Positions 48,351-60,850 of a stretch of DNA of 64,000 nt are shown here, piece by piece. The notes under the pieces are model-generated. The model had not been told where the DNA came from. It did no database searches and was given only the letters and a program-made list of their open reading frames with translations. The position numbers and the translations under genes were made by a program. The stretch lies in contig NC_019977.1 of NCBI RefSeq assembly GCF_000328665.1, forward strand, positions 1,666,011 through 1,730,010. The letters run 5' to 3'. Source of the stretch: Methanomethylovorans hollandica DSM 15978. GTDB taxonomy: Archaea; Halobacteriota; Methanosarcinia; Methanosarcinales; Methanosarcinaceae. Each line of letters begins with the position of its first letter. Position 1 is the first letter of the stretch.

Positions 48351-48434
48351 ATGCACATAGCGATACTAGGCGAATGTGAGGTTTACGATAAGTATGCCAC
48401 CTTCCGGCTTTTAATGCGGGGGCTAAATAGTTGA
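48351..48434 (+). CDS. Possible 27-residue leader or glycosyltransferase fragment
   Basis: ATG frame reading MHIAILGECEVYDKY... and ending in a stop that overlaps the TTG start of the glycosyltransferase by four bases. The peptide looks like the first strand and helix of a GT-B glycosyltransferase and may be the relic of one. Alternatively it serves as a translational-coupling leader. There is no independent support. Confidence 0.35.
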   Translation: MHIAILGECEVYDKYATFRLLMRGLNS

Positions 48435-50005
48435 CCATAGTTGCTGTAATTCCTGCTTATAATGAAGAAGTGTATCTGCGTGATATCATCAAAAAAGCAA
48501 GATCTTATGTTGATGAGATCATAGTTGTGGATGATTGTAGTGACGATGCCACTGCATTCATTGCCACCAGTATGGATATCACTCTTGTACGGCATGATAA
48601 ATCCCTTGGCAGGGCAGAGGCTTTAAAAACTGGTTTTCATGAGGCATATAAACTTAATCCAAAGATCATTGTAACCCTTTATGCAAACGGATGCCATAAT
48701 CCTGATGAGATACCCAAACTTCTGGAGCCGATCTTCTGGTTACAATCTGATGTTGCTACCGGTGAATTGAAAGGCCATGAATGCATACCTGTGATCCTTA
48801 TCGATAAAAATGGAAAAAATCAACAGGCAGCTATAGAGGAAGTATGTGATATTTCTGGAAACCGGTTTGCAGGATTCAGTGCTTTTTCATCCAATACCTT
48901 TAATGTTCTTAAGTTCAATGAAACAAATTTTCCTGTCGAATTCTCTCTGCTCAAAGACGTACAGGATGCGGGTCTTGATGTAAAAGGTGTGGAAGTATCG
49001 ATTTTTGTCAGTGATGAATATGCTGTTCTCCATGAACGCAAGATAGGCGTGGTTATTCCCGCCTACAACGAAGAAAAACTTATCAGGATCACAGTGGAAA
49101 GCATTCCTCCATATGTTTCGAGGATATTTGTGATCAATGATGCAAGCACTGATTCGACCGCAAAGGTGCTGGAGTCTATTAAAGATCCACGGTTGCATGT
49201 CATCACACATGAAACAAATCAGGGCGTGGGTGCGGCTATTTTGCATGGGTATAAGCGCGCTCTGAAAGAGAACATGGAAATTGTCGTGGTCATGGGGGGA
49301 GATAACCAGATGAACCCAGACCAGCTCCCTAAACTACTCATGCCTATTGTTCAGGGCAAGGCAGATTATACCAAAGGCAATCGTCTTATGAGCAAGGAAT
49401 TCAGGGGTGGGATGAGCAAATGGCGTTTGTTAGGTAATTCCGTTCTTACCATGATCAATAAGATCAGCAGCGGATACTGGCACATCATGGACCCTCAGAA
49501 TGGTTATACAGCGATCTCCAGAAAGGCTCTCTCTGGTATTGATATTGACACTCTGTTCACTTACTACGGATACTGTAATGATATGCTTGTGAAACTCAAT
49601 ACATTTGGTTTCCGTACAATGGATATCACAATGCCTGCCCGCTACGGTCAGGAAAAATCTTCCATCAAGTACAGTAGATTCATGTTCCGTGTTTCCGTTA
49701 TGCTTTTCAGGAAATTCCTGTGGCGTCTTAAGATGAAGTACATGATATTGAGTTTCCATCCTTTGGTGTTCTTCTATACTCTCGGAATGATACTGGTACC
49801 TCTGGGTTTGCTCTTCGGGAGCTACATCTTTGTAGCCAAATTGTTACTCGGGTGGCCAGTGTCACCGAATTCCCCATTGCTGGATGCCCTGTTGCTGATC
49901 ACTGGAATACAGTTCACATTGTTTGCTATGCTGTTTGACATGCAGGAATCCGATAAATCTATGCAAGGCGGTGAAACAGATGTACGGAGTGTATCCTGGA
50001 ACTAA
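48431..50005 (+). CDS. Tandem GT2 glycosyltransferase with degenerate first domain and membrane tail
   Basis: 524 residues, TTG start. Domain 1 (about 1-195) starts IVAVIPAYNEE and has VVDDCSDDAT, but where GT2 enzymes carry a D-A-D-G metal motif it reads YANG (84-87), so it is probably inactive. Domain 2 (about 204-420) has VVIPAYNEE, VINDASTDST and MGGDNQMNPDQ (288-298), the expected donor/metal site. Two hydrophobic segments follow (about 437-475 and 480-510), as in dolichol-phosphate sugar transferases. It heads the glycan operon and likely transfers the first sugar to a lipid or elongates it. Confidence 0.85.
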   Translation: MTIVAVIPAYNEEVYLRDIIKKARSYVDEIIVVDDCSDDATAFIATSMDITLVRHDKSLGRAEALKTGFHEAYKLNPKIIVTLYANGCHNPDEIPKLLEPIFWLQSDVATGELKGHECIPVILIDKNGKNQQAAIEEVCDISGNRFAGFSAFSSNTFNVLKFNETNFPVEFSLLKDVQDAGLDVKGVEVSIFVSDEYAVLHERKIGVVIPAYNEEKLIRITVESIPPYVSRIFVINDASTDSTAKVLESIKDPRLHVITHETNQGVGAAILHGYKRALKENMEIVVVMGGDNQMNPDQLPKLLMPIVQGKADYTKGNRLMSKEFRGGMSKWRLLGNSVLTMINKISSGYWHIMDPQNGYTAISRKALSGIDIDTLFTYYGYCNDMLVKLNTFGFRTMDITMPARYGQEKSSIKYSRFMFRVSVMLFRKFLWRLKMKYMILSFHPLVFFYTLGMILVPLGLLFGSYIFVAKLLLGWPVSPNSPLLDALLLITGIQFTLFAMLFDMQESDKSMQGGETDVRSVSWN

Positions 50006-50156: not shown

Positions 50157-51866
50157 ATGTCTTATCTTGATAATCTCGATTTTTCTCTTCCCCGGTTTCG
50201 CCAGATATGCGAAACAATATCCAGGAACTATCCAACTATTACAGTATTAGAGTATTTTGAAAACCCCCGATCTGATAAATTCATCATTATGCGTCATGAT
50301 ATTGACCGTTTTCCGGGAAATGCATTGAAAACAGCAAGTATAGAACATGAACTTGGGATCAAGGCAACATATTATTTCAGATCCAATAAGGGTGAATTTC
50401 ACAAAAATGTAATAAAGCAGATCAAAGAAATGGGTCATGAGATAGGATATCACTATGAGGTACTAAGTGAGACTAATGGTGATCCAGAAAAAGCTATTGA
50501 ATTGTTCCAATCTAATCTGAAAAAATTAAGAGAGATATGTGACGTTAAAACGATCTGTATGCACGGAAGGCCTCTGTCAAGTTTCGATAACCGTGATCTC
50601 TGGAAAATATATAACTATAAAGATTACGGGATCATAGGTGAAGCCTACTTATCCGTAGGTGATGAACTTAATTATTTCTCTGATACCGGCAGATGCTGGG
50701 GACTTAAGGACAATATGAGGGATTACATTCCCGGAAATGAGCAGCATATAGATATTGATAGTACCGGCAACCTCATCAAACTCATTGAAAGCAAAGAACT
50801 AAATAATTTATATATTCTGACACATCCTGAAAGGTGGTCATCTGACATATTTTCATGGGGTGCATATTATTCAATGGATCGTGCTGTTAATCTTGGGAAG
50901 AACATACTGATCAAGTATGGTGGAAGGAAGAACCGTCTGCATGTGGATCGGAGTTTATCGATAACCGTTGATATTGAAGACTGGTATCATATACCTTCAG
51001 TTTGTGGGTCTGACTTTTCAGTTTATAAAGATGTTAAAGAATTCTTTGAAAAATGGGAAGGCAGATACGACTACTTAAGTGAACCTACAAAAAGGGTTCT
51101 GAATATACTTGATGAATTCAATATGACAGCTACGTTCTTTATAGTAGCGGATGTTGCAGAACATTATCCCGGACTGATAGAATCCATTGCTGCAAGGGGC
51201 CATGAGATCGCATGTCATGGAGCTGATCACAGGTGCAGCATCAATCCAAACACAAAAAAACCTTTGCTGACTATAGAAGAGTTCGAACAGAGCACAGAGG
51301 AAGCAAAGAGAATACTGGAAAAGGCTTCGGGGCAGGAGGTAATTGGTTTCCGTGCACCTAACGCAGCAGTGACAGGGCAGATGCTCGATTCACTTCGAAA
51401 AATGGGTTTTAAGTATGATTCATCAGTAGCTGTGAATTCTTTGTACAATAAAACCGATTCTTCATTGAATTTTGTTTCAACTGTTCCTTATTATCCTGCA
51501 ATGGGCAGCCTTGAACCCGCTACTACCGGGGACCTTATAGAGTTTCCATGGTCATATTATGACGTTGGGATAAAGATACCTACATCCGGAGGGCCGATGC
51601 TGAGGTTCTTGGGTGCTAATCTCATCCTGAAAGGAATCAGGCAGAGCTTGAATAGGGGACATACAATATTTTACTTTCACCCCATAGACATCTGCAAAGA
51701 AGAGTTTCCAAAAGTGGGAAAAGGACGGCCTTTTTATTGGATAATTAAAGGAGATATTGTTGAACAAAGGATCCGTTATATACTTCGGAATTTAGATGAC
51801 GTGAAGGTAGTTCCATTGAGAGATCTGGCAACCAAGTTAAAACCAGTGGGTGATTCTGAGTGTTAA
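50157..51866 (+). CDS. Two-domain CE4-like polysaccharide deacetylase
   Basis: 569 residues with two NodB-like halves. Domain A (about 8-255): RHDID (46-50), GHEIGYHYE (His99) and an ILTHPERW segment, lacking the second metal His four residues on. Domain B (about 266-560): VDIEDW (271-276), CHGADH (His354, His358), GFRAPN (Arg399) and FYFHPID at the end, i.e. a canonical NodB set. Domain A is paralogous to the whole of the next gene. It probably N-deacetylates an N-acetylhexosamine residue; cytoplasmic since no signal peptide is seen. Confidence 0.85.
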   Translation: MSYLDNLDFSLPRFRQICETISRNYPTITVLEYFENPRSDKFIIMRHDIDRFPGNALKTASIEHELGIKATYYFRSNKGEFHKNVIKQIKEMGHEIGYHYEVLSETNGDPEKAIELFQSNLKKLREICDVKTICMHGRPLSSFDNRDLWKIYNYKDYGIIGEAYLSVGDELNYFSDTGRCWGLKDNMRDYIPGNEQHIDIDSTGNLIKLIESKELNNLYILTHPERWSSDIFSWGAYYSMDRAVNLGKNILIKYGGRKNRLHVDRSLSITVDIEDWYHIPSVCGSDFSVYKDVKEFFEKWEGRYDYLSEPTKRVLNILDEFNMTATFFIVADVAEHYPGLIESIAARGHEIACHGADHRCSINPNTKKPLLTIEEFEQSTEEAKRILEKASGQEVIGFRAPNAAVTGQMLDSLRKMGFKYDSSVAVNSLYNKTDSSLNFVSTVPYYPAMGSLEPATTGDLIEFPWSYYDVGIKIPTSGGPMLRFLGANLILKGIRQSLNRGHTIFYFHPIDICKEEFPKVGKGRPFYWIIKGDIVEQRIRYILRNLDDVKVVPLRDLATKLKPVGDSEC

Positions 51867-52636
51867 ATCTTCAGGAACTTGATTTTACTACCGAGAAGTT
51901 CCGCCAGCTCTGCTCTGCCATAGCTGATAATTATACGTCTATCACTATAGAACAATACCTAAACAGTAGAGATGATCTTCCAGAGCGGTTTGTTCTGATG
52001 CGTCATGATGTTGATGGGAAAGCAACTCCTTCATTGAGGACAGCGGTCATAGAAAAAGATTTCGGTATACGTGCAACATATTACTTCAGGGCGAAAAGAA
52101 ATATCTACGTCCCGGAGATCATACAACAGATCGAAGGAATGGGGCATGAGATAGGATATCACTATGAGACCTTGAGTGACTCAAAAGGTGACTATGAAAC
52201 AGCAATAAAGATGTTCGAGGAAGAAACAAACCGATTCAGAAGCATTTGCACTCTTAAAACCATCAGTATGCATGGAGCCTCTCTGTCAAGGTATGATAAC
52301 AGGGATTTGTGGAAAGTATATGATTTCAGAGATTATGGGATCATCGGAGAGGCGTACTTATCACTGGGAGAAGAGTTAAATTATTTTACTGATACAGGAA
52401 GGGGCTGGAATTCCAAGAATAATCTGAGAGATTTTATTCCGGGTAGGGATCAAAAGTTCTTTGCCGAGACAACTGATGACCTGATCAGATTGATAGAGAG
52501 CGGAAAAATGCAAAATATGTATATCACACTGCATCCGGATCGATGGACATCGACTACCTTCACGTGGGTTTCATTCTGGTTCCAGGATCTTGCTTTCAAT
52601 TTTGCAAAAAAGATATTGAGGATGACGAGAAAATGA
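51860..52636 (+). CDS. Stand-alone CE4-like protein, paralogue of preceding domain A
   Basis: 258 residues beginning LNLQELDFTTEKFRQLC and aligning from end to end with domain A of the preceding gene: RHDVD, ATYYFRAK, GHEIGYHYETLSDSKGD, SMHGASLSRYDNRDLWK, GIIGEAYLSLGEELNYF, TLHPDRWTS. It lacks the second histidine of the NodB metal site (HYETL). GTG start overlapping the upstream stop by 7 nt. It arose by tandem duplication and may pair with domain A. Confidence 0.82.
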   Translation: MLNLQELDFTTEKFRQLCSAIADNYTSITIEQYLNSRDDLPERFVLMRHDVDGKATPSLRTAVIEKDFGIRATYYFRAKRNIYVPEIIQQIEGMGHEIGYHYETLSDSKGDYETAIKMFEEETNRFRSICTLKTISMHGASLSRYDNRDLWKVYDFRDYGIIGEAYLSLGEELNYFTDTGRGWNSKNNLRDFIPGRDQKFFAETTDDLIRLIESGKMQNMYITLHPDRWTSTTFTWVSFWFQDLAFNFAKKILRMTRK

Positions 52637-53310
52637 AGATCATCGACACCATCCAACATAAACTGATCTTAAAAATGGGATTTAAGTATTACGATGAAGA
52701 CAAGTACCTGATCCGAAAATGTCTGCAGTACTTCAATGGAAAAAAACCAAAAGTTCTAGATGTTGGCTGTGGAACAGGGCATCATTCATTGCTATTTGAA
52801 AAATATGGGGCGAAGGTAACTGCTTTTGATTATGACGAAAGTGTGATCGAAAAGGCAAAAGAAAACAAGATAAAAAGTAATTCAAATGTAACTTTTCTGG
52901 TTGCTGATGGACGATATCCGGAAAAATATTTCACTGAAAAATATGATATTATATTTATGGCTGGCTTCTCAATATTTGGCATCGATCTAAATAAACCAAT
53001 AATGACTAAATATCTGTCTATGCTCGATGAAGGAGGCATATTGGTCTTAGTGCATAATTCCAATCTAACGGGGCTTGTCAGGAAGACAAACTGGAAAAAT
53101 CATAAAATAGAAGATATGAGATCTTTCTTTGAAAGTGTAGGTGGCAAAGTCGAAAAAATATATTTTTACGACAGGCACGTCACTATAAAGATCTTACGCA
53201 GTTTTGCCATTACAGGCCTATCTACCAAACTACATATTCTTATATCCAAAATAACGAAATTACCCTGTGCTATACTTTTCATTGTGAGCAAGAGTGAGAA
53301 GCGGAATTAA
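52633..53310 (+). CDS. SAM-dependent methyltransferase
   Basis: 225 residues. Class I methyltransferase motif VLDVGCGTGHHS (about 40-51), acidic motif II TAFDYDESVI, motif post-I VTFLVADGRYPEKYF and a DIIFMAGFSIFG strand are present. The ATG at 52633 overlaps the previous stop (ATGA), so it is coupled to the CE4-like gene; an upstream extension in the same frame is antisense to nothing and merely overlaps that gene. Likely methylates a sugar hydroxyl or amine of the glycan made by this operon. C-terminal basic-hydrophobic helices (about 185-215) may touch the membrane. Confidence 0.85.
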   Translation: MKIIDTIQHKLILKMGFKYYDEDKYLIRKCLQYFNGKKPKVLDVGCGTGHHSLLFEKYGAKVTAFDYDESVIEKAKENKIKSNSNVTFLVADGRYPEKYFTEKYDIIFMAGFSIFGIDLNKPIMTKYLSMLDEGGILVLVHNSNLTGLVRKTNWKNHKIEDMRSFFESVGGKVEKIYFYDRHVTIKILRSFAITGLSTKLHILISKITKLPCAILFIVSKSEKRN

Positions 53311-53352
53311 CAATATAAAAAATTATACTTAAATTTTGACAACGGTGAAACA

Positions 53353-54429
53353 ATGAGAATACTTTTTAATGTTGGTCATCCTGCTCAAGTTCATTTCTTC
53401 AAGAATGCAATAAGGATTCTTGAAGGCAAAGGGCATGTTTGTAAAATGACGGCAGTCGCCAAAGATGTATCTTTAGATCTATTGGATGCTTATGGATTCG
53501 AATACGAGATAGTGGGAAGTGCACGCCCTACGTTGTTTTCCAAAGCTGTGGAGTTATTGAAGATAGAGAACAAACTCTACAAAATTGCCCGATCCTTCAA
53601 ACCCGATATGCTGGTGGGCGGTTCCGGTAATGCATATAGTACCCACGTTGGCAAACTTATCCATAGACCTTCTATAGTTTTCGAGGACTCAGAAAAGGGG
53701 GCCATTGAACACCTTTTGACAGACCGTTTCGCATCTGTTATATTTACTCCGACCTCATACAAAAAGAAGATTGGTGATAACCAATTATTTTTGAACGGAT
53801 ACAAAGAGCTGGCTTATTTACATCCCAATCATTTTCATCCTTCACAGGCTCCTCTTAATGAGCTTGGTCTAACTGCAGATGACAGATTTGTGATCTTCAG
53901 ATTCGTCACATGGAATGCGGATCATGACATTGGTCATCATGGTATAGAAAATAAAGTTAAGTTTGCTCAAGAGCTTGAAAAATATGGGCGTGTGCTGATC
54001 ACTTCTGAAGGAAAACTGGAGCCGGAGTTAGAAAAATACAGAGTGCGCGTCTCTCCGGAAAAGATACATGACCTGTTATACTATGCCCAGATGTTCGTAG
54101 GAGATAGCCAAACTATGACAACTGAGGCTGCTGTATTGGGTGTACCTGCTATCCGCTGTAATTCTTTTGTCGGAGATGATGATATGTCCAATTTCATAGA
54201 ACTTGAAGACAAATATGGCCTTATTTTCAATTACAGTGATTCTGAAGAAGCATTGAAAAAAGCACTTGAACTTGTAAAAATGCCTAGCCTCAAGGAAGAA
54301 TGGAGCAAAAAGAGAGAGAAACTACTGAATGACAAGATCGATGTCACTGCATTTATTGTGTGGTTCATCGAGAATTATCCGGAAAGTATAAAGAGAGCAA
54401 AAGAAGGTGTTCCTTTTAATTCCAACTAA
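53353..54429 (+). CDS. DUF354 GT-B-fold protein
   Basis: 358 residues of the DUF354 family, a GT-B-like fold related to UDP-GlcNAc 2-epimerase. Start MRILFNVGHPAQVHFF, then VGGSGNAYSTHVGKL, the EDSEKGAIEHLL segment and the donor-site-like MFVGDSQTMTTEAAVLGVPAIR near residues 250-275. It is common in archaeal surface-polysaccharide clusters; its reaction is unknown. Here it precedes WecB by 9 bp, which suggests successive steps. Confidence 0.88.
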   Translation: MRILFNVGHPAQVHFFKNAIRILEGKGHVCKMTAVAKDVSLDLLDAYGFEYEIVGSARPTLFSKAVELLKIENKLYKIARSFKPDMLVGGSGNAYSTHVGKLIHRPSIVFEDSEKGAIEHLLTDRFASVIFTPTSYKKKIGDNQLFLNGYKELAYLHPNHFHPSQAPLNELGLTADDRFVIFRFVTWNADHDIGHHGIENKVKFAQELEKYGRVLITSEGKLEPELEKYRVRVSPEKIHDLLYYAQMFVGDSQTMTTEAAVLGVPAIRCNSFVGDDDMSNFIELEDKYGLIFNYSDSEEALKKALELVKMPSLKEEWSKKREKLLNDKIDVTAFIVWFIENYPESIKRAKEGVPFNSN

Positions 54430-54438
54430 GGTGATAGC

Positions 54439-55506
54439 ATGAAGATAGCAAGTATAGTCGGTGTCAGACCTCAGTTTGTAAAAGCATCCGTAGTTTCTAA
54501 ACAATTAAGAAAGGAACATGAAGAGGTTCTGATCCATACGGGTCAGCACTATGACTATAAGATGAATAACGTTTTTTTCAGTGAATTAAATATTCCAGAA
54601 CCTGAATATTTTCTTGGAATAGGTTCAGGTTCCCATGGATATCAAACCGGAGAAATGCTGAAGAAAATAGAAGAGGTTCTAATCAAAGAAGAGCCTGATA
54701 TCGTTTTAACGTACGGGGACACTAATTCGACACTTGCCGGTGCTCTCTCGGCTGCAAAGCTGCATATTAAAAACGCACATGTGGAATCCGGGTTGAGAAG
54801 TTTTGACAGATCCATGCCTGAAGAGATCAACCGTATCTTGACGGACCATTGTTCTGATCTATTATTCTGTCCAACCAAAAATGCAGTTGACAACCTTAAA
54901 ACGGAAGGGATAACTACCAATGTCTATCTGACCGGTGATGTCATGGCTGATTCTCTGCTATACAATAAAGAAATAGCAGAGGAGAGATCGACGATCCTGT
55001 CTGATCTGGACCTGAACAGCAAAGAATATGCAGTAGCCACAATACATAGAGCAAGCAACACAGATAACAGGGAGAATCTGACAAACATCGTTGATGCTTT
55101 TTCGCAACTGGATGAAACTATTGTATTCCCGGTGCATCCACGGACCCAGAAATTGTTGAAAGAGTATGGCCTCTACGAAAGTTTAAGTTCATCTGTGAAA
55201 CTGGTCGAACCCCTCGGATTCCTTGATTTCATAAAGCTGATGGCTCATTCAAAAATGATACTTACCGATTCAGGCGGGATCCAAAAAGAGGCATATATTC
55301 TGAAGATCCCATGTATTACGTTAAGGGAAAACTCAGAGTGGGTTGAGACCATTGAAGATGGCTGGAACGTTCTTGTCGGAACGGACAAAGAAAAGATATT
55401 CCAGGCAGTCAATTCCTTCCATCCCTCATTAAAATTGCACAAGGACAGATTTGGGAATGGAGATGCAGCTGAAAAGATCGCTGCTATCATTGGAGGTCTG
55501 CAGTGA
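54439..55506 (+). CDS. wecB: UDP-N-acetylglucosamine 2-epimerase
   Basis: Converts UDP-GlcNAc to UDP-ManNAc. 355 residues, standard length. Motifs: IVGVRPQFVKASVVSKQL, TGQHYDYKMNNVFFSEL, YGDTNSTLAGALSAAK, HVESGLRSFDRSMPEEINR (about 113-131), and the DSGGIQKEAY donor loop (near 276-285). No UDP-ManNAc dehydrogenase (WecC) or sialic-acid synthase is in the window, so ManNAc or a derivative is probably used directly. The stop overlaps the next ATG (ATGA). Confidence 0.95.
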   Translation: MKIASIVGVRPQFVKASVVSKQLRKEHEEVLIHTGQHYDYKMNNVFFSELNIPEPEYFLGIGSGSHGYQTGEMLKKIEEVLIKEEPDIVLTYGDTNSTLAGALSAAKLHIKNAHVESGLRSFDRSMPEEINRILTDHCSDLLFCPTKNAVDNLKTEGITTNVYLTGDVMADSLLYNKEIAEERSTILSDLDLNSKEYAVATIHRASNTDNRENLTNIVDAFSQLDETIVFPVHPRTQKLLKEYGLYESLSSSVKLVEPLGFLDFIKLMAHSKMILTDSGGIQKEAYILKIPCITLRENSEWVETIEDGWNVLVGTDKEKIFQAVNSFHPSLKLHKDRFGNGDAAEKIAAIIGGLQ

Positions 55507-56558
55507 TGTTGGATCAGAATTCCGAACTGTGGGAAACATTTACCAGAAAAGAAGAGTACTCTCCGGTTAAATTAGATAAACATCAGAGATTTAATTATGC
55601 CAATAGTAAAAATAAAAACGCATTTGAGCCCGTTGTTTCTAAGTTTTTGGTATCTGAAGGTTTGAGCGCGGAATATCCCGAAAATAAAAGATTTGCTGTC
55701 TGTCTGACCCATGATATTGATGATATCTATCCCCCGTCCTCTCACATCCTGTCTTCTTTTTTTTATTGTTTGAAGGCATTAGATTATAATTCATTTAAGC
55801 CACAGATAGCATGGAAAATAAAAGGAAAAGAGCATTCCCCATACCTGAATTTTAGCGAGATCATGGACATAGAAAAGAAATATGATGCAAAATCTTCTTT
55901 TTATTTTATCACAGAAAAGAAAGATCCCGTAAGATTCAGATACGACATTGAAGAGATAGGCCATGAACTGGGAAACATTCTGGACAACGGGTGCGAAGTA
56001 GGATTACATGGCGGTTACTATGCGTATAATAGTCTTGAGAGTATGAAAGAAGAAAAATCGAGATTAGAGAACACTTTAGGGAAAAAAATTATCGGATACA
56101 GGAATCATTATTTAAGGTTCAAGATCCCGGATACCTGGGAGCTATTGGCAAAGGCTGGTTTTAAATATGATTCTACGCTGGGATATGATGATATGATCGG
56201 ATTCAGAAATGGTATGTGTCATCCTTTCAAACCATACGATCTGAATAAAAACGAACCTATAGATATACTGGAACTGCCATTGGTCATTATGGACGGCTCT
56301 TTGTTCTCCTATGCAAAGTCCTTAGATGAAGCCTTTGAATATGCTAAAAAGCTCATCGACACAGTAGAGAGATATAATGGAGTTATCACTCTTTTGTGGC
56401 ATAATAGTCCTTTCAGCTGGCCGATCCGGAAGAATTGGAAAATATTATACGAAAAAATACTTAAATATTGTTATGATAAAAATGCATGGATAACCAGTGG
56501 TGAAGAGATCTATAACTGGTGTATGAAAGAATGTAAAGTGCAATTTTATCAATCCTAA
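55503..56558 (+). CDS. CE4-like polysaccharide deacetylase superfamily protein
   Basis: 351 residues, a third member of the CE4 group in this operon but of a different subfamily. LTHDIDD (about 70-76), an inserted helical stretch (80-115), YFITEKKDPVRFR, CEVGLHGGYYAYNS (His near 163; no second His four residues later), and a C-terminal ITLLWHNSPF, the His of NodB motif 5. Translation is coupled to wecB by a 4-nt overlap. It may deacetylate ManNAc- or GlcNAc-derived residues. Confidence 0.8.
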   Translation: MMLDQNSELWETFTRKEEYSPVKLDKHQRFNYANSKNKNAFEPVVSKFLVSEGLSAEYPENKRFAVCLTHDIDDIYPPSSHILSSFFYCLKALDYNSFKPQIAWKIKGKEHSPYLNFSEIMDIEKKYDAKSSFYFITEKKDPVRFRYDIEEIGHELGNILDNGCEVGLHGGYYAYNSLESMKEEKSRLENTLGKKIIGYRNHYLRFKIPDTWELLAKAGFKYDSTLGYDDMIGFRNGMCHPFKPYDLNKNEPIDILELPLVIMDGSLFSYAKSLDEAFEYAKKLIDTVERYNGVITLLWHNSPFSWPIRKNWKILYEKILKYCYDKNAWITSGEEIYNWCMKECKVQFYQS

Positions 56559-56661: not shown

Positions 56662-57840
56662 GTGATACCAACTGACAAAAAGGCGTTATTTATAATACAT
56701 GCATACAATAATTTTCAAAAAGAATCCATTAACAGTACATGCAATTATTTCAAAAGCTGTTCAGTGTTAGTCAGGTCCAACCCTATCTCAGAGTTTTCTA
56801 AATACATCAAGGTGCCATTTTTGGAAACTTTCAAACTGGATTATAAGATTGATCTTAATGACGTTCCTCCAAATATATCTGTTCATCCAACACCGGTCTT
56901 ATACACTCCTCTTAATTCACAGTACAAGAAACTTGGGGAGAAGCACTTCAAAGCTGCTGAAACATCAATTAAGAAAAATAACATAGAATTCGATCTTATC
57001 CATTCTCATTTCACATGGTCCTCCGGATATGCCAGTGCAAAACTTAAGGAAAAATACAATGTCCCTTTTGTTGTAACGGGTCATGGATATGACATCTATA
57101 GCTTGCCCTTTAAAGATGAAGAATGGAAAGAAAGAATTGAATATGTACTTAATTCGGCAGATAGGATAATAACTGTAAGCAATAAAAATCTGTCCTATAT
57201 TAAGAAACTGGACGTTAAAACGCCTGTTCATATTTTACCGAACGGGTACAGGCCGGATAAATTTTATCCAATGAATATGGAAAAATGCAGAAAGGCTTTA
57301 GGTTTACCTCTCGATAAGAAAATAATAGTCGCAGTAGGCAATCTGGAAGAAATAAAAGGCCACTATTACCTTGTAGAAGCTATGGCAGAAGTGATAAAGC
57401 ATAGAAAAGATGTGCTTTGTTTCATAGTCGGCGGCGGCAAACAAGAGAGAAATCTCAGGAGGCAGATAAAGAATGCAGGCTTGGAGAACCATGTGAAGCT
57501 TCCGGGAAGTAAATTGCATAATGAGATCCCTAGGTGGATGAATTCCTGCGATCTATTCGTATTACCAAGTTTGAACGAGGGCAATCCGACAGTTATGTTC
57601 GAGTGCCTGGGTTGTGGAAAACCTTTCATAGGAACAAAAGTAGGCGGTATTCCGGAGATCATTGTTTCTGATGACTATGGACTGCTGGCTGAGCCGGCAA
57701 ATTCAGAAAGACTTGCAGAGACTATTTTGCTGGCATTGGATAAAAACTGGGACACAACTAAGATCAAAGCATATTCTGCACAATTTACATGGGCCGAGAT
57801 CGGAAAGAATATAGTGGATATATATAAGACACTTCTCTGA
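56662..57840 (+). CDS. Glycosyltransferase family 4
   Basis: 392-residue GT-B enzyme. N-terminal domain with IHSHFTWSSGYASAKL and VTGHGYDIYSLPF; the C-terminal GT1/GT4 domain has ILPNGYRPDKFYP, VAVGNLEEIKGHYYLVEA and the donor motif LPSLNEGNPTVMFECLGCGKP (near 300-322, split ExxxxxxxE). GTG start after AGGTG. It probably adds a later sugar in the operon's glycan. Last plus-strand gene of the cluster. Confidence 0.92.
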   Translation: MIPTDKKALFIIHAYNNFQKESINSTCNYFKSCSVLVRSNPISEFSKYIKVPFLETFKLDYKIDLNDVPPNISVHPTPVLYTPLNSQYKKLGEKHFKAAETSIKKNNIEFDLIHSHFTWSSGYASAKLKEKYNVPFVVTGHGYDIYSLPFKDEEWKERIEYVLNSADRIITVSNKNLSYIKKLDVKTPVHILPNGYRPDKFYPMNMEKCRKALGLPLDKKIIVAVGNLEEIKGHYYLVEAMAEVIKHRKDVLCFIVGGGKQERNLRRQIKNAGLENHVKLPGSKLHNEIPRWMNSCDLFVLPSLNEGNPTVMFECLGCGKPFIGTKVGGIPEIIVSDDYGLLAEPANSERLAETILLALDKNWDTTKIKAYSAQFTWAEIGKNIVDIYKTLL

Positions 57841-57905: not shown

Positions 57906-58511
57906 TTATTTAACGACCCTTGTAAGTTCAGTTGCCTTTACCAGCATTCCTTCAGATCCCCTCTCGCTAATCTTTTTGGCAGGAACTCCTGCGATCGAGA
58001 TAGCAGGCTCCAAGAAAGATTTATTAACGACAGAATTGGCACCTATAGCTATTCCATCAGCTATTGCTATCTGTCCAAATATTTTGGCTCCGGGGCCAAT
58101 ATAAACATTATCACCGATTTTGGGTGCTACGTCCTCGTATCCTGCTTTAGTTCCAATGTTAACGCAGGCGTGCAACCTGCAATTTGCTCCAACCCGTGTG
58201 GCTTTGTTGACGACTATAGTGCCTCTGTGAGCAATACTTAATCCAGGACCAAAAACATTCAGAGGTATGGTGAAACCTAATTTTATGCTCAGTAAGTAAT
58301 ATTTTCTTTTTAATAGCAGAAGGTATAGTTTCCAGAAGATAGACTTCTTACAATTTTGGTAATACTCTACCTTCCTTAAAAGCCTCTGGAATGTCCAAAT
58401 GTAATCATATTCGAAATTTTTAGGTTTTTTACCTTTTCTTGATAAGGCTATTCTATCCGCTTCTAAATAAAATTTGTAGTCATCTTTAGACAAGATCAAT
58501 GTGAACACCAT
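57906..58511 (-). CDS. Serine acetyltransferase-like hexapeptide acyltransferase
   Basis: 201 residues. A helical N-terminus (1-75) is followed by a left-handed beta-helix with hexapeptide repeats (about 80-175: IPLNVFGPGLSIAHRGTIVVN, CRLHACVNIGTKAG, VYIGPGAKIFGQI, AIGANSVVNKSFLEP, AGVPAKKI). The His in SIAHRG and HACVNIG are typical catalytic positions of CysE/WcaB-like sugar acetyltransferases. In this setting it likely O-acetylates the glycan. Convergent with the GT4 gene. Confidence 0.88.
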   Translation of the reverse strand: MVFTLILSKDDYKFYLEADRIALSRKGKKPKNFEYDYIWTFQRLLRKVEYYQNCKKSIFWKLYLLLLKRKYYLLSIKLGFTIPLNVFGPGLSIAHRGTIVVNKATRVGANCRLHACVNIGTKAGYEDVAPKIGDNVYIGPGAKIFGQIAIADGIAIGANSVVNKSFLEPAISIAGVPAKKISERGSEGMLVKATELTRVVK

Positions 58512-59709: not shown

Positions 59710-59860
59710 GTGACTGCTCCCACACCTAAAGCCTGTGGGCTTCTACGGTTTCGATACCGACAGATTGCAATCCCAATCTGAGAATATTGATGGCTGCATT
59801 ATGGTCTCTATCCATTACAAGATCACAGCTATCACATTTATGAACTCTATCGGCTAGTGT
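59710..59860 (-). ncRNA. Predicted omega/re-RNA scaffold overlapping tnpB 3' end
   Basis: TnpB elements make a guide RNA from the 3' part of tnpB and the right end; the guide is the flanking host sequence. Here the scaffold would end at the right-end hairpin and GTCAC (59710-59714), and the guide would start GCTAATCAATATATAC (59709 downward). The start of the RNA is a guess from the usual length. Confidence 0.4.
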
Positions 59861-60850
59861 TTTTTCAACTAGCAAACCACATCTTGAACACATCTTTGAT
59901 GTATTAGCAGGATTAACCAATACTACTACAGAACCAGCACTTTCAGCCTTGTACTTAGTCATATTGATTAACATGTTCCACGATACGTCTGCTATGCTTT
60001 TTGCAAGACAGTGGTTTTTAATCATGTTTTTAATATTCAAATCTTCAAAAGCAATAAATGAATAATTGCCCACAAGTTGTCTACTGATTTGATGTGCAAA
60101 ATTATACCGTTTGTTAGCTATTCTTTCGTGAACTAACTGAACCACTTTCCTAGCTTTCTGTCGTTCAGTGGTACCTTTAGAGGCTTTGGAAAGTTTGCGT
60201 TGGACTCTCGCAAGCTCTTTCTCTTCAGCTCTGAAGAAACGTGGATTTGGAATAAAGGTTCCATTCGACATGGTTGCGAAATTTGCAAGTCCAACATCAA
60301 TACCTACGACTTTATTCAGATCGGCGATTGGTGTTGGAGTATCTTCAACTTCAATTGTCAAGCACACATACCATTTATTGCATGCTGTTCTTCTAACAGT
60401 TATACGTTTCACATTGTCTTCTATTTGTCTATGGAATTTGACATATACATCTCCTATTTTGGATAGATAGATGTGATTGTTCTTTAATTTAAAACCCATC
60501 TGAGGATAAGTGAAACTATCATACCATCCTTTGCCCTTGAAACGAGGATAGCCTGGTTTCTCTCCATTCTTTACCCTTCTAAAAAAGTGTTTGAAGGCAA
60601 GATCAACACGTTCCTGTACTTCCTGAAGAGTCTGAGAAAACACTTCATTATACTCTGTATTCTCTACTTTCCACTGTGGTAGAAGATTGTTTAGTGCATA
60701 TTTAGATAATGTTTTTCCAGTTTCTTCATAAACTTGCTTTCGTTCAGCAAGAGTCCGATTATATACTTGCCTACATAATTCCAAGCTCCGCTCCATCTGT
60801 CGAATTTGAGATTTGGTTGGATAGATACGAAACTTGTATATCTTACGCAT
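59726..60850 (-). CDS. tnpB: TnpB RNA-guided endonuclease
   Basis: 374 residues, full length. The split RuvC triad is intact: Asp185 (GIDVGLANFA), Glu269 (AFEDLNIK) and Asp349 (MDRDHNAAINI). The C-terminal zinc finger has Cys321/324 (CSRC) and Cys339/342 (CDSC). An N-terminal helix-turn-helix (1-50) and Arg/Lys-rich recognition part are present. It is therefore probably an active ancestor-type Cas12-like nuclease. No frameshift or stop interrupts it, unlike many old copies. Confidence 0.93.
   Translation of the reverse strand: MRKIYKFRIYPTKSQIRQMERSLELCRQVYNRTLAERKQVYEETGKTLSKYALNNLLPQWKVENTEYNEVFSQTLQEVQERVDLAFKHFFRRVKNGEKPGYPRFKGKGWYDSFTYPQMGFKLKNNHIYLSKIGDVYVKFHRQIEDNVKRITVRRTACNKWYVCLTIEVEDTPTPIADLNKVVGIDVGLANFATMSNGTFIPNPRFFRAEEKELARVQRKLSKASKGTTERQKARKVVQLVHERIANKRYNFAHQISRQLVGNYSFIAFEDLNIKNMIKNHCLAKSIADVSWNMLINMTKYKAESAGSVVVLVNPANTSKMCSRCGLLVEKTLADRVHKCDSCDLVMDRDHNAAINILRLGLQSVGIETVEAHRL

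Follow-up and report, generated by a model that had tools for sequence, protein, structure and literature searches.

What do four CE4/NodB-like domains do side by side in one archaeal glycan cluster, when three of them lack the complete H-x3-H metal pair? We addressed this question in Methanomethylovorans hollandica DSM 15978, using a 64,000-nucleotide stretch of its genome (referred to as 'the window'; NC_019977.1, 1,666,011 to 1,730,010, forward strand), whose own numbering is used below. Positions 50157-56558 encode an A-B fusion protein, an adjacent paralogue of its domain A (referred to as P), and a VimE-like protein. We propose that a diamino-sugar pathway of the Wbp/Vim kind probably uses domain A, P and the VimE-like protein as metal-dependent N-deacetylases in the cytosol. 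The A family is conserved and mostly unnamed, with a predicted CE4 fold and a putatively relocated metal His, and its tie to 2,3-diamino-sugar synthesis is observed as gene linkage. The three genes and their candidate site residues are:

50157-51866, + strand: open reading frame of the A-B fusion, 569 amino acids (aa)
50157-50951, + strand: domain A (residues 1-265), CE4-like family with a shifted His; invariant residues R46, H47, D48, D50 (50298-50306), H99 (50451-50453), Y100, E101, H136 (50562-50564) and H223 (50823-50825)
50952-51866, + strand: domain B (residues 266-569), canonical NodB/CE4 domain, TIGR03006-like; site residues H354 (51216-51218), H358 (51228-51230), R-A-P as motif 3, and H508
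51860-52636, + strand: P, paralogue of domain A, 258 aa, GTG start, overlapping the A-B fusion frame by 7 bases; site residues D50, D52 (52013-52015), H101 (52160-52162), H138 (52271-52273) and H225 (52532-52534)
55503-56558, + strand: VimE-like CE4-fold protein, 351 aa, GTG start, overlapping the wecB-type gene by 4 bases; site residues D71, D73 (55719-55721), H169 (56007-56009), R200-N-H202 (56106-56108), D264 and H300 (56400-56402)

The initial annotation had counted four CE4/NodB-like domains in three genes and had confined the H-x3-H pair to domain B, and the open reading frames and motif positions agree with it on both counts: HGADH at residue 354 of the 569-aa protein provides His354/His358, and the non-canonical motifs were found again as HYEVL at residue 99 of domain A, HYETL at 101 of P and HGGYY at 169 of the 351-aa protein. 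Against PF01522 (cut-off 23.1 bits), domain B matched with an E-value of 5.4e-20, domain A was borderline (24.1 bits in the genome search, 22.2 bits when searched alone), P fell under the cut-off at 14.7 bits, and the 351-aa protein scored 19.2 bits; the last matched the NCBIfam VimE model (NF053580) with an E-value of 4.5e-34. P is 50-52% identical to domain A across about 250 residues. The whole genome contains six PF01522 matches, three of them at this cluster. Since the A-B fusion with an adjacent P was found again in further Methanomethylovorans genomes and in related genera of the same family such as Methanosarcina, and pairs of A with a VimE-like gene recur in haloarchaeal operons, we consider the arrangement to be more than chance. 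The suggestion of an undescribed system thus survives for a CE4-like family whose metal site is altered and whose cluster recurs, and fails for the third gene, which is already recognizable as a distant VimE relative.

Within the phylum the A family occurs in 85 of 393 genomes, and several bacterial phyla have it too. It goes mostly undetected by Pfam, most members tested being under the detection level, and on annotated plasmids its genes are labeled 'hypothetical protein'. Our alignment comprised 94 non-redundant sequences of methanogen, other archaeal and bacterial origin, with identities averaging 46% and reaching down to 32%. In all 94, R46, H47, D48, D50, E63, R75, H99, Y100, E101, H136 and G137 were invariant, as were W149, E162, Y173, W181, D189, H223 and W227; the position of the former second His was occupied by L, M, V, Y or F. 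RHDxD, HYE, H136-G and H223 were also kept in 12 of 12 haloarchaeal and Spirosoma relatives. Ratios of nonsynonymous to synonymous substitution rates (dN/dS) were 0.07-0.16 for A, 0.07-0.10 for P and 0.03-0.05 for B. The alternative residues being invariant and purifying selection strong, A and P are very probably not the decayed pseudoenzymes that the initial annotation had considered. Its idea of an A/P heterodimer fared no better as a requirement. P makes up a single clade in the tree, with the A-B fusions in its sister clade inside Methanosarcinaceae, and there are Methanosarcina loci with P but not A and Methanococcoides loci with A but neither P nor B; A and P thus each occur singly in many genomes, so that an obligate heterodimer need not be assumed.

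Two P loci deserve separate mention. In a related methanogen (G007, L041:11620-12396) codon 66 of the P gene is an in-frame TAG (IE-TAG-ELGI); with TAG decoded as pyrrolysine the gene is full length, and its product is possibly a pyrrolysine-containing CE4-like protein. A contig binned as Desulfobacteraceae (L113:419-1441) encodes P (66% identical) and domain B behind a shortened remnant of domain A, which may reflect either a lateral transfer in which A was lost or wrong binning of the contig.

We next consider where the metal site might lie. The A, P and VimE-like families share with CE4 (NodB, PF01522) the predicted fold, the motif-1 Asp, the first motif-2 His and the motif-5 His, but differ from it in lacking the second His of H-x3-H throughout and in having, in place of the motif-3 Pro, an invariant His, as aligned for the VimE-like family. 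That family is invariant at T69-H70-D71, D73, H169-G170, R200-x-H202, D264 and H300, and its profile alignment to domain B placed H169 on H354, Y173 on H358 and R-N-H202 on R-A-P. The global profile alignment of A with domain B gave nothing useful past motif 2, and the assignment of H136 of domain A to motif 3 therefore rests on strand order: in the models the candidate site residues lie at the C-terminal ends of successive strands (in P, strand 132-137 followed by H138). The invariant motif-3 His of both the A and the VimE-like families rules out three unrelated losses at the metal site.

We infer by analogy that the motif-3 His (H136/H202), which lies at the end of the strand after that of the first His, may be a metal ligand. 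Three residues would then make up the site: the Asp of H-D-x-D, the His that opened the former H-x3-H, and a His relocated to motif 3 on the following strand, an arrangement like that of ChbG. The Zn ligands of kpChbG are D11, H61 and H125; in the solved structure H125 coordinates Zn and, while unaligned with CE4 in sequence, overlaps the second His in space (PMC9402603). ChbG/YdjC (PF04794) would in that case resemble the candidate site here in its order of Asp, His and a third His on a later segment.

Structure prediction, which had been suggested for the 258-residue paralogue, returned a CE4-like fold. The P model (AlphaFold2, 37-row alignment) had a predicted local distance difference test score (pLDDT) of 86 and a predicted template modeling score (pTM) of 0.86, and its top PDB matches in Foldseek were the CE4 enzymes PdaC, BA0150 and BA3943, with probability 1.0. 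The VimE-like model (pLDDT 90, pTM 0.91) matched 3rxz best (E-value 5.6e-11), then PuuE, ArnD and many deacetylases, with CE4 matches at Foldseek probability 1.0. P and the VimE-like protein are therefore predicted to have the NodB (beta/alpha) barrel fold. When domain A, P or the A1 profile served as query, sequence searches of the PDB yielded only weak CE4 matches.

The neighborhood survey, also proposed at the outset, showed that the clustering recurs in Methanosarcinaceae, in the operon L224 described below, and in haloarchaea. We counted same-strand neighbors within six genes of the 94 non-redundant A loci; because of contig ends these counts are lower bounds. DUF354 was the commonest (68/94), followed by FemAB-class genes (44/94, 38 of them at -1, +1 or +2), GT2 (37/94), hexapeptide acyltransferase (28/94), DegT aminotransferase (25/94), nucleotide-sugar dehydrogenase (22/94), ATP-grasp (20/94), Gfo/Idh (16/94), PIG-L (13/94) and VimE-like genes (12/94). 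On Halobaculum and Halolamina plasmids an acyltransferase, a DegT aminotransferase, a Gfo/Idh/MocA protein and a nucleotide-sugar dehydrogenase directly precede A; in Halobaculum the genes after A are a PF01663 phosphodiesterase-like gene, DUF354 and a VimE-like CE4 gene, and in most haloarchaeal cases a GNAT lies near the A operon. On a Spirosoma plasmid A stands between DUF354 and wecB, together with an N-acetyl sugar amidotransferase, HisH, HisF2 and a FemAB-like GNAT. Two further neighbors are recorded as side observations: the PF01663 phosphodiesterase/nucleotide-pyrophosphatase-like gene between A and DUF354 (for example L212:7792-9360, on a Halobaculum plasmid), and a PaaK/F390-synthetase-like adenylate-forming enzyme found repeatedly near P or A in methanogens (L118:10876-12207, L056), a hint that a carboxylic acid may be activated there to form an amide.

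The putative partners for making 2,3-diamino sugars lie elsewhere in the M. hollandica genome. A module 55 kb past the window (G000:C2, ~1784.6-1790.7 kb) encodes a 6-dehydrogenase, a uridine diphosphate (UDP)-N-acetylglucosamine (GlcNAc) 3-dehydrogenase (515 bits against a cut-off of 450), a DegT aminotransferase, a hexapeptide acetyltransferase and a WbuX-like amidotransferase. The WbpA/B/E/D gene set for UDP-2,3-diacetamido-2,3-dideoxy sugars is thus present in this genome, with these sugars as its predicted products. In a methanogen-phylum genome (G136), one run of genes (L224) encodes an acetyltransferase, an aminotransferase, a 3-dehydrogenase, GT2-GT2, A, DUF354, a VimE-like protein, a GNAT and a GT4. 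These are 44-59% identical to the genes of the window and the module (46% for the GT2-GT2 before A), except for the GT4 at 26%. Judged by its gene content, this operon joins two halves that are kept apart in the window genome. The 3-dehydrogenase was present in 41 of 41 A-positive genomes of the organism's own family, compared with 11 of 21 A-negative ones (Fisher's test, 3e-6, kinship ignored), and in 64 of 85 compared with 64 of 308 among the 393 genomes of the phylum (3e-20, kinship again ignored).

The remainder of the cluster in the window is as follows:

48431-50005, + strand: fused double GT2 glycosyltransferase, the N-terminal half like polyprenyl-phospho-GalNAc synthase and the C-terminal half like AglJ
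52606-53310, + strand: S-adenosylmethionine-dependent methyltransferase, with its start at 52543 or 52606
53353-54429, + strand: DUF354 (PF04007) protein, the commonest A-family neighbor
54439-55506, + strand: non-hydrolyzing UDP-sugar 2-epimerase of the WecB/WbpI type (TIGR00236, 337.6 bits; cut-off 210.15)
56662-57840, + strand: GT4 glycosyltransferase
57906-58511, - strand: hexapeptide acyltransferase at the cluster end, on the opposite strand and a candidate operon member only

Just past the glycan cluster, on the minus strand at 59726-60850, lies what appears from its sequence to be a TnpB-like protein of the IS200/IS605 type. The genome has two archaeosortase-like genes (PF09721), and one of them (L189, G000:C2:1480000-1499900) is separated by about 3 kb from another CE4-like gene; a glycosyltransferase is close by.

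Two further described systems come close to these genes. In the scheme for Porphyromonas and Tannerella, VimE is proposed to take one acetyl group off a 2,3-diacetamido sugar, after which VimA, of the GNAT/FemAB class, adds an amino acid (PMC7468200). The VimE-like protein is, like VimE, CE4-related; the neighbors of both make UDP-2,3-diacetamido-2,3-dideoxy sugars, and the logic of a deacetylase with a FemAB/GNAT partner recurs in relatives of our cluster. The second is the XrtA/PEP-CTERM polysaccharide deacetylase (TIGR03006), which domain B matched with an E-value of 6.2e-38 and 130.5 bits, under the cut-off of 276.2; the FemAB-class neighbor of the A family in relatives also resembles the XrtA-associated FemAB protein TIGR03019. 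An XrtA system is not evident at this locus. WbmS was set aside as a described relative, its Pfam match being weak and limited to domain B and the search for a useful paper fruitless.

On this basis we infer the substrate, the reaction and the order of steps as follows. The cluster would produce a surface glycan with a 2,3-diamino sugar among its residues. A Wbp-type module (3-dehydrogenase, aminotransferase, N-acetyltransferase and 6-dehydrogenase) would convert UDP-GlcNAc to a UDP-2,3-diacetamido sugar or to the corresponding uronic acid, and the window epimerase could invert this product at C2. The sugar, either as a nucleotide sugar or lipid-linked, would then be N-deacetylated by domain A, P and the VimE-like protein, freeing an amine. 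None of the three proteins has a hydrophobic signal or membrane segment, so cytosolic action on a UDP-sugar or lipid-linked sugar is the most likely. In relatives the freed amine would be re-acylated by a FemAB/GNAT-type transferase; in Methanomethylovorans it may stay free, or be methylated or acylated by the candidate methyltransferase at 52606 or acyltransferase at 57906.

Several observations weigh against this proposal. VimE is itself a putative deacetylase (PMC7468200), and the VimE-like protein reached 117.8 bits against the VimE equivalog (NF053580), under the cut-off of 440. Template modeling (TM) scores of P to CE4 structures were about 0.4-0.55 with a large root-mean-square deviation, and the invariant E101 is an alternative candidate for the third ligand. 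Comparison by hhalign with a 12-sequence ChbG alignment gave nothing significant (A family, E-value 0.68; VimE-like family, 0.014 over 10 columns), in a weak test that the canonical domain B failed too; we therefore keep ChbG as a structural analogy only. YdjC was absent from the 148 genomes of this phylum in which it was looked for. The co-occurrence p-values are not corrected for phylogeny. The L224 operon lacks a 6-dehydrogenase, and the sugar therefore need not be a uronic acid and may in this respect differ between species. Finally, a search of the M. hollandica genome for PF13480 (FemAB/GNAT) found no match, so the re-acylation step fails for this organism; this rules out a FemAB protein as the missing partner, and the freed amine must have another fate. 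In this respect, and in having a second deacetylase-like family (A/P) alongside, the system differs from the VimE pathway.

How do other explanations compare? The missing second metal His and the fusion of A to an intact CE4 domain would also fit domain A and P as catalytically dead NodB domains whose role is to regulate domain B or give it a scaffold, perhaps as an A/P heterodimer, and CE4 pseudoenzymes are known, BA3943 among the fold matches being one. We consider this very unlikely, given a complete alternative Asp/His set that is invariant and under strong purifying selection, the common occurrence of A without P or B (in Methanococcoides and others) and of P without A (in Methanosarcina), and the haloarchaeal A gene that stands alone in a biosynthetic operon. 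It is also unlikely that the His-shifted families are metal-independent CE4-fold hydrolases, or catalyze another reaction such as deformylation or ureide or ester hydrolysis, in the manner of PuuE. PuuE, which is with ArnD among the top fold matches of the VimE-like protein, lacks the second His and works without a metal, but both of its motif-1 Asp residues have gone as well (PMC10967932), whereas H-D-x-D is invariant here; both families moreover have the extra invariant motif-3 His, and their operon partners make N-acetylated diamino sugars.

The linkage could instead reflect no more than shared surface-glycan islands; the proteins would then be CE4-type deacetylases of the ordinary tailoring kind, acting on a polysaccharide that is finished or lipid-linked, with no tie to a 2,3-diamino sugar. 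Many glycosyltransferases surround the genes, the window contains neither a 3-dehydrogenase nor an aminotransferase, and 21 of the 85 A-positive genomes lack the 3-dehydrogenase at the threshold used; the absent export signal, and a gene order in several archaeal families that puts these genes on one strand with the pathway module, often with overlaps, make this explanation unlikely in our view. We thus favor N-deacetylation within a diamino-sugar pathway. A more detailed version, which we offer tentatively and think improbable as a whole, is that the third metal His shifted from motif 2 to motif 3 in two separate CE4-fold families, which work side by side, one on each N-acetyl group of a 2,3-diacetamido sugar. 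Their product would be a linker sugar, amino-acylated or N-methylated, for surface glycoproteins or lipids of archaea. This would be an archaeal counterpart of the Wbp/Vim pathway plus an extra deacetylase outside the described scheme.

A likely reaction and a testable metal site would annotate A-family genes in many archaeal families and several bacterial phyla. Loss of H-x3-H alone would not make a CE4-fold protein a pseudoenzyme, and the Wbp/Vim linking-sugar idea would extend to archaea.

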